From Kribbella soli (GTDB lineage Bacteria; Actinomycetota; Actinomycetes; Propionibacteriales; Kribbellaceae): DNA of 64,000 bases. Position numbers and translations under genes: made by a program. This document shows positions 51,148-56,344 of the stretch, in pieces. Within the stretch, counting starts at the first letter, position 1; each line of letters begins with the position of its first letter. The notes beneath the pieces are model-generated. The model searched no databases. It was not told the origin of the DNA and saw only the letters and a list, made by a program, of their open reading frames with translations. The DNA lies in the NCBI RefSeq assembly GCF_004331345.1, contig NZ_SJJZ01000004.1, positions 310,001 to 374,000 on the forward strand, written 5' to 3'.

Positions 51148-52818
51148 ATGACCGATCCTGAGATCAGACCAGCTGACGACTGGTGGCGTAGCGCCGTCGT
51201 CTACCAGGTGTACCCGCGCTCGTTCGCCGACGCCGACGGTGACGGAACCGGCGACGTGAACGGGATCCGCGCCCGGCTGCGGTACCTCGCCGAGCTCGGC
51301 GTCGACGCGATCTGGATCAGCCCGTGGTACCCGTCCCCGCTGCTCGACGGCGGGTACGACGTCGCCGACTACCGCGACATCAACCCGGAGTTCGGCACCC
51401 TCGCGGACGCGGACGCGCTGATCGCCGAGGCGCACGCGCTGGGGCTGCGGATCCTGATCGACCTGGTGCCGAACCACTGCTCCTGGGAACACCCGTGGTT
51501 CAAGGCCGCGCTGGCGGCGGACAAGGGTTCTCCGGAACGGGACCTGTTCTGGTTCCGGGACTCCGAGGACGGCCTGCCGCCGACCAACTGGCCGGCCGCG
51601 TTCGGTGGCGGCGCCTGGCAGCAGATCGACGACGGGCAGTGGTACCTGCACCTGTTCGACATCTCCCAGCCGGACTGGAACTGGGACAACCCGAAGGTGA
51701 TCGAGGAGTTCGACGCGATCCTGCGGTTCTGGTTCGACCGCGGCGTCGACGGGTTCCGGATCGACGTCGCCGACTCGATGGCGAAGGACCCGGCGTTGCC
51801 CGACGTACCGCTGCACAACGGGGAGCCGACGCGGGAGAAGTACGTCGGGAACCCGTTCTACGACCAGCCCGGGGTGCACACCATCCATCAGCGCTGGCGC
51901 GCGATCGCCGACGAGTACGCCGATACGCCGCAGGGGCCCCGGGTCTTCGTGGCGGAGGCGTGGCTGTCGCCGGCCGAGCGGCTGGCGCAGTACGTGCGGC
52001 CGCACGAACTGCACTCGGCCTTCAACTTCGACGCCCTGCGCGCTGCGTGGGACGCGAAAGAGCTGCGTGAGGTCATCGACCACACCACCGACAACCTGTG
52101 GGCGGTCGGAGCGCCGGCGACGTGGGTGCTGAGCAACCACGACACGATCCGGCACCGCACGCGGTACGGCCGGGACCATCGGGACGCGTTGGAGGGTGCG
52201 GGCGTCGTACCGACCGATCTGGAGCTCGGGCTGCGCCGGGCGCGAGCCGCCGCGCTGCTGGAACTGGCGCTGCCCGGTGGCGCGTACATCTACCAGGGTG
52301 ACGAGCTCGGGCTGCCCGAGGTCGAGGACCTGCCCGAGGACGTGCTCGACGACCCCACGTGGGAGCGTTCCGGGCACACCGTCCGCGGGCGCGACGGCTG
52401 CCGGGTCCCGATCCCGTGGTCCGGCTCCGAGCCGCCGTACGGCTTCAGTGCTATTCGCAAACCCGCCCCACCACCCAATAGGCCGGGCACGGCTCAGCCG
52501 TGGCTTCCGCAGCCGTCCGATTGGGCGGGTCTGACCGCCGAGGCCCAGGCCGGAGACCCCGGCAGTCACCTCAGTCTCTACAAGGCGGCTCTCAAGATCC
52601 GTCACGAACACCCGGCCCTCGGCGAAGGCCGCCTCGCCTGGGACCCGGACGCCGCCGAGGGCATCCTGTCCTTCACCCGCGATCCCGGCTTCCGTTGCGT
52701 CGTGAACGCCAGCGACAGCGCGATCGCCCTGCCCGCCCACGAGAAGGTCCTGCTGAGCAGCGAGCCGCTGCCGAACGGCGAACTCCCGGTGGACACCACC
52801 GTCTGGCTCCAGGTCTGA
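51148..52818 (+). CDS. GH13 alpha-glucosidase
   Basis: This is a 556-residue cytoplasmic alpha-amylase-family enzyme that hydrolyses alpha-glucosides to glucose. Conserved regions are 'DLVPNHCS' (~105-112), 'GFRIDVAD' with nucleophile Asp 206, acid/base Glu 270 in 'VFVAEAWLS', and 'LSNHDTIRH' with Asp 332. An insertion of ~11 residues rich in Pro ('KPAPPPNRPG') precedes 'WLPQPSDWAG'. The ATG has no strong ribosome-binding site. It is convergent with the alpha-glucoside ABC transporter operon, which probably feeds it. Confidence 0.92.
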   Translation: MTDPEIRPADDWWRSAVVYQVYPRSFADADGDGTGDVNGIRARLRYLAELGVDAIWISPWYPSPLLDGGYDVADYRDINPEFGTLADADALIAEAHALGLRILIDLVPNHCSWEHPWFKAALAADKGSPERDLFWFRDSEDGLPPTNWPAAFGGGAWQQIDDGQWYLHLFDISQPDWNWDNPKVIEEFDAILRFWFDRGVDGFRIDVADSMAKDPALPDVPLHNGEPTREKYVGNPFYDQPGVHTIHQRWRAIADEYADTPQGPRVFVAEAWLSPAERLAQYVRPHELHSAFNFDALRAAWDAKELREVIDHTTDNLWAVGAPATWVLSNHDTIRHRTRYGRDHRDALEGAGVVPTDLELGLRRARAAALLELALPGGAYIYQGDELGLPEVEDLPEDVLDDPTWERSGHTVRGRDGCRVPIPWSGSEPPYGFSAIRKPAPPPNRPGTAQPWLPQPSDWAGLTAEAQAGDPGSHLSLYKAALKIRHEHPALGEGRLAWDPDAAEGILSFTRDPGFRCVVNASDSAIALPAHEKVLLSSEPLPNGELPVDTTVWLQV

Positions 52819-52825
52819 CCCAAAG

Positions 52826-52857
52826 GAAACGGCCGGAGCGTTGGCTCCGGCCGTTTC
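52826..52857. terminator. Bidirectional terminator after the alpha-glucosidase
   Basis: GAAACGGCCGGAGC (52826-52839) pairs perfectly with 52844-52857 around a 4-nt loop, followed by CTTT. It separates the alpha-glucosidase from the convergent transporter operon. Confidence 0.85.
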
Positions 52858-52863
52858 TTTGTG

Positions 52864-53007
52864 TCAGCGGTTCCGCAGGCGATCGCGGGCTTCGCGGTCC
52901 CGGCGGTCCCGGTCCTCGCGATCGCGGCGGTCCCGGTCCTCGCGGTCCCGCCGGTCCCGGTCTTCCCGGTCGCGGCGGTCCCGATCGGCCCGATCCCGCC
53001 AGCTCAC
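52864..53007 (-). CDS. Arg/Asp/Glu octapeptide-repeat micro-protein
   Basis: This 47-residue reading frame starts at a GTG overlapping the permease stop (GTGA) and is mostly four copies of R-D-R-R-D-R-E-D (the last with A in place of final D), flanked by 'MSWRDRAD' and 'RDRLRNR'. About 90% of residues are R, D or E. The DNA repeat unit is 24 bp. It lies between the permease and the operon terminator. It may be a real coupled peptide or slippage-born repeat DNA; alternating-charge peptides of this kind are prone to condensate or RNA interactions in other systems, which is inference only here. Confidence 0.5.
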   Translation of the reverse strand: MSWRDRADRDRRDREDRDRRDREDRDRRDREDRDRRDREARDRLRNR

Positions 53008-53864
53008 TTCACGCCACCTGCCGTGAGGCCGGCGACGATACGGCGCTGGAACAGCAGTACGGCGATCACGAGCGGGATCGTGACCACCACACCGGCGGCC
53101 ATCTGGCTGCCGAACGGTTGGTCGCGGCCCGTCGTACCGGTGAACTGCGAGACGATCACGTTCGCCGTCTGGATCGACTTCTTGTTGGTCATGCTCAGCG
53201 CGATCAGGAACTCGTTCCAGGCCGCGATGAACGTGATGATGGCGGTGGTGAACACACCGGGCGCCGCCAACGGGATGATGACCTTGCGGAACGCCTGGGC
53301 CGGCGTACAGCCGTCCACCATCGCCGCCTGCTCGAGCTCCTGCGGCATCTGCCGGAAGAACGACGTCAGGTTCCACACCGCCAGTGGCAGCGCGAACGAC
53401 AGGCTCGGCACGATCATCGCCTGGTAGGTGTTGATCCACTTGATGTCGACGAACAGCTTCAGCAGCGGCACCACCAGCGAGATGCCCGGGAACATCGACG
53501 TGGTGATGATGATCGCCAGTACGACGTTCTTGAACTTGAAGTCCAGCCGCGCCAGGGTGTACGCCGCGATCATGCCGATGACCAGCGTCAGGATCGTCAC
53601 CGTTCCGGCCACGATCAGGCTGTTCAGCAGCCCTCGGCCGAAGCCGTTGGGCCCGGCGAACACGTCCTTGAAGTTCTGGAGCGAGATCGGCGCCGGGATG
53701 ATGTCGTTCGAGAACTGGTCGGACGGCCGGCGGAACGCCGAAACCACCATCCAGTAGAACGGCGCCAGGCAGTAGAGGACGATGATCAGCACGCCGATCA
53801 GCGGCAGCCACTTCTTGATCCACGCGTGCTCGCCGGCCCGGATCTGGGGGATGTCACTGGCCAT
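53004..53864 (-). CDS. Alpha-glucoside ABC transporter permease, MalG type
   Basis: This is a 286-residue permease with six predicted spans; the EAA loop reads 'ELEQAAMVDGCTPAQAFRKVI' in parts. It ends 'AGLTAGGVK' like the MalG-type permease at 1939-2832. It is the third transporter gene after the binding protein and MalF-type permease; its ATG overlaps the preceding stop by one base (TGATG). No ATPase gene is nearby. Confidence 0.88.
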   Translation of the reverse strand: MASDIPQIRAGEHAWIKKWLPLIGVLIIVLYCLAPFYWMVVSAFRRPSDQFSNDIIPAPISLQNFKDVFAGPNGFGRGLLNSLIVAGTVTILTLVIGMIAAYTLARLDFKFKNVVLAIIITTSMFPGISLVVPLLKLFVDIKWINTYQAMIVPSLSFALPLAVWNLTSFFRQMPQELEQAAMVDGCTPAQAFRKVIIPLAAPGVFTTAIITFIAAWNEFLIALSMTNKKSIQTANVIVSQFTGTTGRDQPFGSQMAAGVVVTIPLVIAVLLFQRRIVAGLTAGGVK

Positions 53865-54919
53865 CAGATACTCCTCCCGGAACCGGACGCCGCGCTGACG
53901 CCGACCGCCGCCGTCGCTGCCGCGGCACCCGCGCCACCGTTCTTCTTCCGTCGCCCGCCACCGGGCTTCTTCGCTCGGGCCTCACCGATCACGTCGGCAC
54001 CGAGGATCTTCACGAACAGGTAGGCGACCACCGCGACGTAGAGGAACAACAACGTCGCATACGCCGCCGCCGGCCCGAAGCGGACATTGGATGCTTCGTC
54101 GTACGCGAGCATCGAGAGCGTCTCGACCGAGTTCTTGTGCTGGCCGACCAGGACGAACGGCAGGTCGAAGATCCGCAGCGTGTCGAGGATCCGGAACAGC
54201 ACTGCCACCAGCAGCGCCGGCTTCACCAACGGCAGCGTGATCCGGGTGAAGGTCCGCCAGGCGTTCGCTCCGTCCACCTTCGCGGCCTCGTAGACCTCGG
54301 CCGGGATGGTCTGCAGCCCGGCCAGGACCAGGAGGCCGATGAAGGGCGCGGTCTTCCAGGTGTCCGCGATCACCACCGAGAGCTTCGACTGCCAGCCCTC
54401 CGTCGACCACAGCACCTGGGAACCGAGCAGGGTGTTGGCGATGCCGTCGGCCTGGAAGATCCACTTCCAGAGCAGCGCCGAGATGACGGTCGGGATCGCC
54501 CACGGGACCAGGATGCTGGCCCGGACGAGGCCCCGGCCCTTGAAGGCCTTGTGCATGATCAGCGCCATCGCGACGCCGAGGACGGTCTCCAGGACCACAC
54601 ACACCACGGTGAAGAACGTCGTGTTGTAGAACGCGTTCCAGAACCGGTCACCGGTCTCGCCGCGGAAGATGTCCAGGTAGTTGTCGAGCCCGACGAAGGT
54701 CGAGCCCTTGACGATGAAGCCGTTCTCGTCGAGCCGCTGCCCGCTCTGGAACAGCGATTCCTTCAGCGCCGAGATGATCGGGAACAGCACCACCACGGCG
54801 AGCACGAGCAGCGTCGGGGAGAGCAGTATCGCGGCCAGCCGGCCGGTGCCCTCGTTGAACCGCTGCTGGCGCTTCGATGTACTGGCCGGTCCTTCCGGGA
54901 CCGGCGTGCTTGCAGTCAC
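53864..54919 (-). CDS. Alpha-glucoside ABC transporter permease, MalF type
   Basis: This is a 351-residue permease with a hydrophilic N-terminus, a first span near residues 28-50 and the EAA loop 'EVYEAAKVDGANAWRTFTRI'. The C-terminus has a ~40-residue Lys/Arg/Gly/Ala-rich tail ('KKPGGGRRKKNGG' and Ala-rich end) not usual in the family. It is followed directly by the MalG-type gene. A 17-bp hairpin lies between it and the binding-protein gene. Confidence 0.88.
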   Translation of the reverse strand: MTASTPVPEGPASTSKRQQRFNEGTGRLAAILLSPTLLVLAVVVLFPIISALKESLFQSGQRLDENGFIVKGSTFVGLDNYLDIFRGETGDRFWNAFYNTTFFTVVCVVLETVLGVAMALIMHKAFKGRGLVRASILVPWAIPTVISALLWKWIFQADGIANTLLGSQVLWSTEGWQSKLSVVIADTWKTAPFIGLLVLAGLQTIPAEVYEAAKVDGANAWRTFTRITLPLVKPALLVAVLFRILDTLRIFDLPFVLVGQHKNSVETLSMLAYDEASNVRFGPAAAYATLLFLYVAVVAYLFVKILGADVIGEARAKKPGGGRRKKNGGAGAAAATAAVGVSAASGSGRSI

Positions 54920-55015: not shown

Positions 55016-56344
55016 TCAGTTCGTGATCAGCGTCTCTAGCTTGGTCTGCAGGTCGGCGAGCGCCTTGTCCGGCGTCACCGTCGAGCCCGGCTTCAACGTG
55101 TCGTACGCGGCCGCCTGGATCGCGGCCGTCACGTCGCCGTACTTGACCACCCGCGGCCGCGGCTGCGCACCGAGGATCGAGGCCTTCAGCGGCGCCAGGT
55201 ACGGGAACTGCTTGGTCAGCGCCGGGTCGTCGTACAGCGAGGCCCAGCTCGGCGCCTGCGACGTCTTCTCGATGTTCGCCTTCTGGCGCTCTTCGCTCGC
55301 CATGAAGTTGATGAAGTCGAGCGCGGTCGCCTTGTTCTTGGCGAACGAGCTGATCGCGTAGTCGTGACCACCGAGCGACGAGACACCCGGGCCGGTCTTG
55401 CCCGGCAGCGGCGCGACCGCGAACTTACCGGCCACCTTCGACGAGCCGTCGGTCGCCTCGGCCTTCGCGTACACGTACGGCCAGTTGCGCAGGAAGAGCA
55501 GCTTGCCCTCCTGGAACGCGCGCCGGCTCTCTTCCTCCTTGTAGGTGATCGCGGCCTTCGGGATGGCGCCGGTCTTGAACCCGTTCACCAGCTCCTCGAG
55601 ACCGGCCTTGGCCTCCGGGGTGTTGACGTTCGGCTTGCCGTCCTTGTCGACGATCACGCCGCCGGCCGAGTTGACCGCCTCGGCGAAGTTGACGGTCAGG
55701 CCCTCGTACTTCTCGAACTGACCGGAGTAGCAGCTCATGCCCTTGGCCTCGGGCAGCGCGGCCACCTTCTGGCAGGCGGCGAGCATCTCGTCCCAGGTCT
55801 TCGGAGCCTCCGCGATACCGGCCTTGGTCAGCAGGTCCTTGCGGTAGTAGAGCAGGCCGCCGTCGGAGGTCACCGGCACGCCGTACAGCTTGTCGCGGTA
55901 CTTCGCGGTCTCCACCGTCGCCGGGATCAGCTTGCCCAGGTCGGGGACCTTGTCCTCAGGGATCTGGGTGACCCACTGGTTCGCCGCGAACTCCGACGTC
56001 CAGACAACGTCCATCGACAGCACACTGAACGCGTCGGACTGGGCCTGCGCGTTCTGGATCATCTGCTGCCGCTGCGCGTTGGCGTCCTCGGGGAGCTCCT
56101 TGAGCTCCACCTTCTCGTTCGGGTGCGACGCATTCCAGGCATTGAGCTGGTTCTGCAGGTTTCCGGACGTGTCCTTGCCACTGGCAAGGGTGATCGGTCC
56201 CCGGCCTTCGAGCGCTGCGGCCGAGCTGCCCCCGCTACCGCTGCTTCCGTCGTCGCCACCACCACACGCGGTGGCCAGCAGCGCGAAGCTGCTTGCGACG
56301 GCCACGAAAGCCGTCCTGCGTGCGTGTGATCGTTCAAACCTCAT
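55016..56344 (-). CDS. Alpha-glucoside-type ABC transporter substrate-binding lipoprotein
   Basis: This is a 442-residue family-1 binding protein with a signal peptide and lipobox LATAC (Cys 27), then a Gly/Asp/Ser linker. It has 'DVVWTSEFAANQWVTQI' and 'KLYGVPVTSDGGLLYYRKDLL', as in trehalose/maltose receptors of the LpqY/ThuE/AglE type. Context with an alpha-glucosidase suggests maltose, trehalose or a related glucoside. It is the first gene of the operon. Confidence 0.85.
   Translation of the reverse strand: MRFERSHARRTAFVAVASSFALLATACGGGDDGSSGSGGSSAAALEGRGPITLASGKDTSGNLQNQLNAWNASHPNEKVELKELPEDANAQRQQMIQNAQAQSDAFSVLSMDVVWTSEFAANQWVTQIPEDKVPDLGKLIPATVETAKYRDKLYGVPVTSDGGLLYYRKDLLTKAGIAEAPKTWDEMLAACQKVAALPEAKGMSCYSGQFEKYEGLTVNFAEAVNSAGGVIVDKDGKPNVNTPEAKAGLEELVNGFKTGAIPKAAITYKEEESRRAFQEGKLLFLRNWPYVYAKAEATDGSSKVAGKFAVAPLPGKTGPGVSSLGGHDYAISSFAKNKATALDFINFMASEERQKANIEKTSQAPSWASLYDDPALTKQFPYLAPLKASILGAQPRPRVVKYGDVTAAIQAAAYDTLKPGSTVTPDKALADLQTKLETLITN

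Follow-up and report, generated by a model that had tools for sequence, protein, structure and literature searches.

The 47-codon open reading frame (here called the micro-ORF) that follows a sugar-transporter permease gene in Kribbella soli is probably a genuine gene for a small protein in the genus Kribbella, maintained by selection at the protein level, with a product that would be a free-standing charged single alpha-helix (SAH). It lies in a window of 64,000 nucleotides (contig NZ_SJJZ01000004.1, positions 310,001 to 374,000), the whole stretch of DNA that was analysed. A first-pass annotation, made from the letters of the window, had described a 47-residue frame whose start overlaps the permease stop in a GTGA; both the frame and the overlap are present, on the minus strand (Table 1). 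Its count of four octapeptide repeats is right to one residue, as three octads are exact copies of RDRRDRED and the fourth has a final A for D; its wording of alternating R and D/E was loose, the actual charge order being + - + + - + - -. At the DNA level, the array has a period of 24 bp, 4.4 copies, 84% matches and a score of 142, the top score among the tandem arrays listed in the window. The similarity between the octads exceeds chance, and every difference falls at a third codon position (10/10 pairwise differences among the three exact octads).

The two best PDB matches of the neighbouring solute-binding protein are named maltose- and trehalose/maltose-binding proteins. With a start that overlaps the upstream stop and a ribosome-binding site in range, the micro-ORF has the sequence traits of translational coupling, and it is putatively coupled to the permease in this way. 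The corresponding sites of the orthologues at congeneric loci are similarly G-rich, with varying letters (AGGTGG, AGGCGG, GGAGGT and others). The frame had also been said to end just before the operon terminator: a perfect hairpin does lie beyond the stop and is presumed to be a terminator common to both convergent genes, but a consensus-based terminator and promoter scan of the micro-ORF region in the window listed none, despite the visible hairpin. No match to the micro-ORF was obtained in Pfam at E 0.001 or among PDB sequences at E 1, searches in which low-complexity corrections can hide matches.

Table 1. Features at the micro-ORF locus (window positions) and the relocated copy in another Kribbella genome
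Feature	Coordinates	Strand	Remarks
Alpha-amylase-family gene	51160..52818 (start approximate)	plus	Pfam PF00128; convergent with the micro-ORF
Perfect 14-bp hairpin	52826..52857		Between the micro-ORF and the alpha-amylase-family gene, by reading
Micro-ORF, 47 aa	52864..53007	minus	VSWRDRADRDRRDREDRDRRDREDRDRRDREDRDRRDREARDRLRNR; GTG start 53007-53005, TGA stop 52866-52864
GTGA start/stop overlap of micro-ORF and permease	53004..53007	minus	Permease stop TGA at 53006-53004
AGGTGG, Shine-Dalgarno-like site	53014..53019	minus	Within the final permease codons, six bases before the micro-ORF start
Second sugar ABC permease (BPD_transp_1)	53004..53864	minus	Pfam PF00528
First sugar ABC permease (BPD_transp_1)	53864..54919	minus	Pfam PF00528
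Solute-binding protein	55016..56344	minus	Pfam PF01547; PDB 6dtq, 1eu8
Relocated micro-ORF, genome G028	L122:5083-5316		Longer C-terminal end; leader stretch kept

To follow the frame through the genus, the permease was searched in 58 genomes, 37 of them congeneric (the 38th congeneric genome, G058, lay outside this search), and the 3' side was read at all 37 congeneric loci for an ORF of at least 25 aa with more than 60% charged residues that starts within 1.5 kb of the permease stop. An intact micro-ORF of 40-62 aa was found beside the permease at 30 of the 37 loci. Its start overlaps the permease stop, at offset -4, at 22 loci, and at the other eight it is a separate gene that starts 46 to 1331 bases past that stop. 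Seven loci gave no micro-ORF by this definition (L017, L018, L020, L024, L025, L027 and L031). At L031 (genome G018), it is frameshifted early, just after the permease stop, with the remaining repeat kept in another frame; the copy was either lost recently or misassembled. G028, the genome of L025, carries an intact micro-ORF elsewhere. Thus, 31 of the 38 congeneric genomes contain an intact micro-ORF, one a frameshifted one, and six (G001, G003, G009, G015, G021 and G058) no convincing copy. This comparison of the permease 3' ends, which the first-pass annotation had proposed as a check, indicates that the frame itself is kept, beyond the repeat alone. The frameshifted or stop-containing relatives that it had named as a refutation were seen once among the 32 genomes with a recognisable copy, and the other 31 copies are intact. 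Kribbella conserves the micro-ORF as a coding gene, apparently a dispensable one in view of the one frameshift and the six genomes that lack a convincing copy.

Searched at E 0.001, a profile (A1) built from 24 of the 29 distinct proteins gave one match in each of 30 of the 38 congeneric genomes; it missed G002 and G033, where an intact ORF was read directly, yet matched the frameshifted G018. In a follow-up search, three of the six genomes without a copy gave nothing and three gave only matches at E 0.29 to 0.6, and weak matches away from the permease had E 0.1 to 0.9. In 391 genomes of the order, drawn from a larger group, no convincing copy was detected outside the genus, and three non-congeneric matches at E 0.004-0.01 were taken as chance. 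In 394 genomes of the class, likewise drawn from a larger group, only the window's genome and G380 were matched; by reading, the G380 match overlaps a longer ORF on the same strand with a repetitive PTETAQPA-type tail, and it was also taken as chance.

The spacing of the charges, which goes beyond what the first-pass annotation had remarked on, carries the structural prediction. The charge order of the octad flips its sign at a shift of four, and in a helix each side chain would therefore face an opposite charge one turn away on both sides. Of the 1040 charged pairs at i,i+4 in the 29 distinct proteins, 990 are opposite (95%; mean 51% and maximum 56% in 1000 shuffles), counts that are not independent because the proteins are related. 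At i,i+3, only 312 of 1034 charged pairs are opposite, most being like-charged. Four positive and four negative charges can be ordered in 70 ways, of which 16 are antiperiodic, and the octad alone could therefore have this property by luck. Weight is placed instead on pairs that persist through sequence divergence: of 424 i,i+4 pairs in places where the pattern is locally unlike the octad, 374 are still opposite, with charges partly kept even without selection, as a change between Arg and Asp/Glu codons takes two base changes. Moreover, Pro and Gly occupy none of the 1215 residues after residue 7, where 16% of single-base changes would create them, and Leu, Trp, Phe and Ile together account for 11. 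Like SAHs, the sequences thus pair opposite charges at i,i+4 and lack both helix breakers and a hydrophobic heptad; SAHs often pair opposite charges at i,i+3 as well. Their composition (R 44.5%, D 28%, E 12% and Lys 0.6% in the 29 distinct proteins) is Asp-rich and departs from the usual SAH composition of Glu with Lys/Arg, a trait more than a definition, and the protein is therefore regarded as SAH-like and not filed as a proven member. The net charge is 0 to +5 in 29 of the 30 proteins and -1 in one. Run without an alignment, AlphaFold predicted the 47-aa protein as one helix over residues 3-45 with a mean pLDDT of 94.1; a charged nonsense-frame control, taken from the window with equal length but unmatched composition, was also given a helix (5-31, mean pLDDT 77.5) despite Pro and Gly, so the prediction is not specific and supports the helix mildly. 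Taken with the absence of Pro and Gly, the i,i+4 charges follow the logic of a single alpha-helix, which is predicted here to be the whole protein.

A translated and conserved product might instead be a disordered polyampholyte, an Arg-rich mixed-charge chain that self-associates or joins condensates. Its composition would suit such a chain, and Asp, a poor helix former, lowers helix propensity; there is also a literature on basic-acidic dipeptide regions, and those of splicing proteins are reported to self-associate or join condensates. However, composition alone needs neither strict i,i+4 complementarity nor the absence of Gly and Pro, both of which are kept, and in a plain alternating R-D chain residues i and i+4 would have the same charge, contrary to the observed pattern. 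We therefore consider a disordered chain unlikely.

The relationship of the micro-ORF to the transporter can be judged from its positions. The idea that the peptide is made together with a sugar transporter holds by position, as in the overlapping copies, and finds no support as functional coupling, given the separate copies and the relocated one. The latter, in G028, is flanked by an AMP-ligase-like gene and an R2-like gene (putative names, by reading), and the stretch upstream of it, from GCGTATGGTC to GGAGGTG, is nearly identical to that of L029 and L019, which lie beside the permease; leader and gene thus appear to have moved together. On the permease tree, with the frameshifted copy coded as present and L025 as absent, 11 changes are required to explain the four states (overlapping, separate, absent and elsewhere) and five to explain presence versus absence; 17 of the 34 inner branches are well supported, and these alone force at least seven changes for the overlapping state.

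Individual loci add to this picture. At L011, a hairpin (by reading) and other open frames separate the permease from the micro-ORF, up to 1.3 kb away. An apparent secreted-protein gene lies in between, and the micro-ORF is preceded by a second permease-tail-like stretch, which looks like a junction duplicated by an insertion. L030 also has a hairpin between the two genes, and L033 has a start of the separate type, MSYGDEQ, in the overlapping position. A short stretch, in its fullest form GGAGGTGTGAAGTGA, occurs at some permease ends and at some separate-gene starts, and the overlapping and separate states may interconvert by deletion between copies of this type. In addition, seven of the eight separate copies (L011, L012, L019, L023, L028, L029 and L037; L030 has its hairpin there instead) and the relocated copy share the stretch GCGTA(A/T/G)(G/C)GTC, some 35 bases ahead of the start. 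It is a possible, TANNNT-like, -10 element; by eye, no convincing -35 element was seen upstream of the separate copies. Since some copies have a ribosome-binding site of their own, and perhaps a promoter too, the transporter is better seen as an expression context than as a necessary partner.

These arrangements bear on the possibility that the peptide serves a maltose/trehalose-type importer as a small subunit for regulation or assembly, made in step with the permease. The start/stop overlap of the 22 intact copies is what such an accessory would show. It is set against the eight copies that are separate genes, of which one lies about 1.3 kb off behind another open frame, against the gene at an unrelated place in G028, and against six of the 37 congeneric loci (G028's included) where the permease stands without such an ORF within 1.5 kb. 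Among the best 80 permease matches in a named collection, six Kribbella entries and Streptomyces sp. SID13031 had 83-91% identity, and the next had at most 75%; five of the seven congeneric loci among them carry the micro-ORF, and none of the 73 loci of other genera does (ORF of 25 aa, more than 55% charged, up to 3 kb downstream where the sequence extends). A transporter accessory is thus quite improbable, and we infer that the micro-ORF is not tied to the transporter.

Whether the frame is translated was addressed by its pattern of substitution. Six orthologue pairs of the same length with less than 25% changed residues were compared without gaps (from 30 sequences, with L023 in two pairs; other same-length pairs fell outside the 25% limit). 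The differences at codon positions 1, 2 and 3 numbered 10, 14 and 87, and 73 of the 98 changed codons (74%) were synonymous and 25 nonsynonymous. Neutral simulation on the same sequences with 60% transitions gave a mean of 24% synonymous and a maximum of 40% in 1000 runs, and NG86 dN/dS ranged from 0 to 0.19 across the six pairs. The 54 exact octads in the 30 genes have 47 DNA spellings. Among 85 octads of the canonical charge order, Asp occupies position 2 in 81 and position 5 in 84, Glu position 7 in 73, and Asp position 8 in 65. These results argue for selection at the protein level, and the earlier suggestion of translation gains strong support from evolution, as reading frame and third-position bias are both kept. 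A neutral GC-rich minisatellite behind the permease, translated to no purpose, might explain a tandem array of variable length, the one frameshifted copy and the six genomes without a convincing copy, and is nevertheless extremely improbable. It is contradicted by the conservation of the frame (30 intact frames beside the permease, with conserved starts) and, unless something other than a protein produced it, by the substitution pattern (third-position bias, dN/dS below 0.2 in six pairs).

We also checked the strand. The antisense of the repeat contains an Arg-Ser octad frame (R-S-R-R-S-R-S-S) on the plus strand at 52841-53026. In a six-frame control, this frame had 82 of 100 changed codons synonymous versus 73 of 98 in the sense frame, owing to the four-fold degeneracy of its Arg and Ser codons; the synonymous fraction alone would therefore not suffice to pick the strand. 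The frame is also open across the window's copy, and the real gene could have been the plus-strand one, with the R-D frame merely its shadow. Such a gene predicts free exchange at the Asp/Glu codons, whereas in the orthologue comparison the third base crosses between purine and pyrimidine in only seven of 38 changes there and in 22 of 38 at Arg codons (Fisher p 0.0008 for pairs that are not fully independent). In 10 of the 30 genes, the antisense frame is cut short by a stop 100 bases or more ahead of the sense stop; in 11 it has one 4-37 bases from that end, and in nine, the window's included, it is fully open. The conserved start, the ribosome-binding site and the MSYGD leader likewise fit the minus-strand frame. 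An antisense Arg-Ser gene is thus excluded by the Asp/Glu constraint and the antisense stops, and we give it practically no credence.

Returning to the predicted charged helix, the closest counterparts are the SAH (ER/K) domains, e.g. that of myosin-6, which are also almost wholly charged, without a hydrophobic core and with opposite charges one turn apart. In published descriptions, these bridge or link domains within larger proteins, whereas the micro-ORF helix would be the whole protein. PMC5347031 describes SAHs as rich in Arg, Glu and Lys and reports that designed Arg-rich SAHs with a seven-residue unit aggregated; here the acid is mostly Asp and the unit is an octad. The DNA-binding KER helix of CAF-1, also a charged SAH, shows that such a helix can bind nucleic acid (PMC10335832); KER, part of a eukaryotic protein, is some 90 residues long and bears a basic stripe, whereas the micro-ORF product is nearly neutral. 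By reasoning, the octad should spread charge around the helix, with no basic stripe. The basic-acidic dipeptide or RD-repeat regions of U1-70K and NELF-E share repeats of Arg with Asp/Glu and a mixed charge. They are roughly alternating dipeptides, which places like charges at i,i+4, and they are eukaryotic and lie inside RNA-binding proteins. Bacterial small ORFs of 15-70 codons, often predicted to form only a single alpha-helix, are described in PMC11188072; that survey covers intergenic ORFs of Enterobacteriaceae, and its main text does not use the words charged, arginine or low complexity. A search of the open-licence literature found no description of the micro-ORF protein and showed nothing on this gene in connection with trehalose or desiccation; the available part of PMC10654065 contains nothing relevant to the protein, and a term search of PMC11132505 gave no match. 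SAHs and small coupled genes are therefore known, and a gene encoding only an Asp-Arg octad helix was not found in that literature.

In its commonest layout, the gene overlaps the tail of a maltose/trehalose-type permease gene. Its product would be a soluble rod, about 6.5 nm long (43 residues x 0.15 nm), with salt bridges one turn apart and without a hydrophobic core. Such a rod might act in the cytoplasm by weak multivalent electrostatic contact, most likely with nucleic acid or ribosomes; alternatively, it might be a hydrophilin-like stabiliser beside the trehalose/maltose-type importer. The fullest version of this proposal, in which an autonomous gene encodes only an SAH rod that serves as a nucleic-acid- or ribosome-binding electrostatic ruler or as a stabiliser, moves between loci with its own promoter and uses the transporter operon as a mere expression host, is possible and, as a whole, doubtful.

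Small genes of this kind can escape family searches: for the micro-ORF, Pfam and PDB were blank, and even its own profile (E 0.001) failed to match two of the 31 genomes in which it is intact. The antisense Arg-Ser frame, which mimics purifying selection, is a trap for frame tests on R/D/E repeats in general. If the preferred reading is true, most sampled species of one genus have a natural protein that consists of a salt-bridged helix only, and about thirty natural variants of it are open to synthesis. Direct tests could then be made of the ability of an Asp-Arg octad to maintain a helix as a monomer, and of the effect that a charged rod on its own has in the cell.
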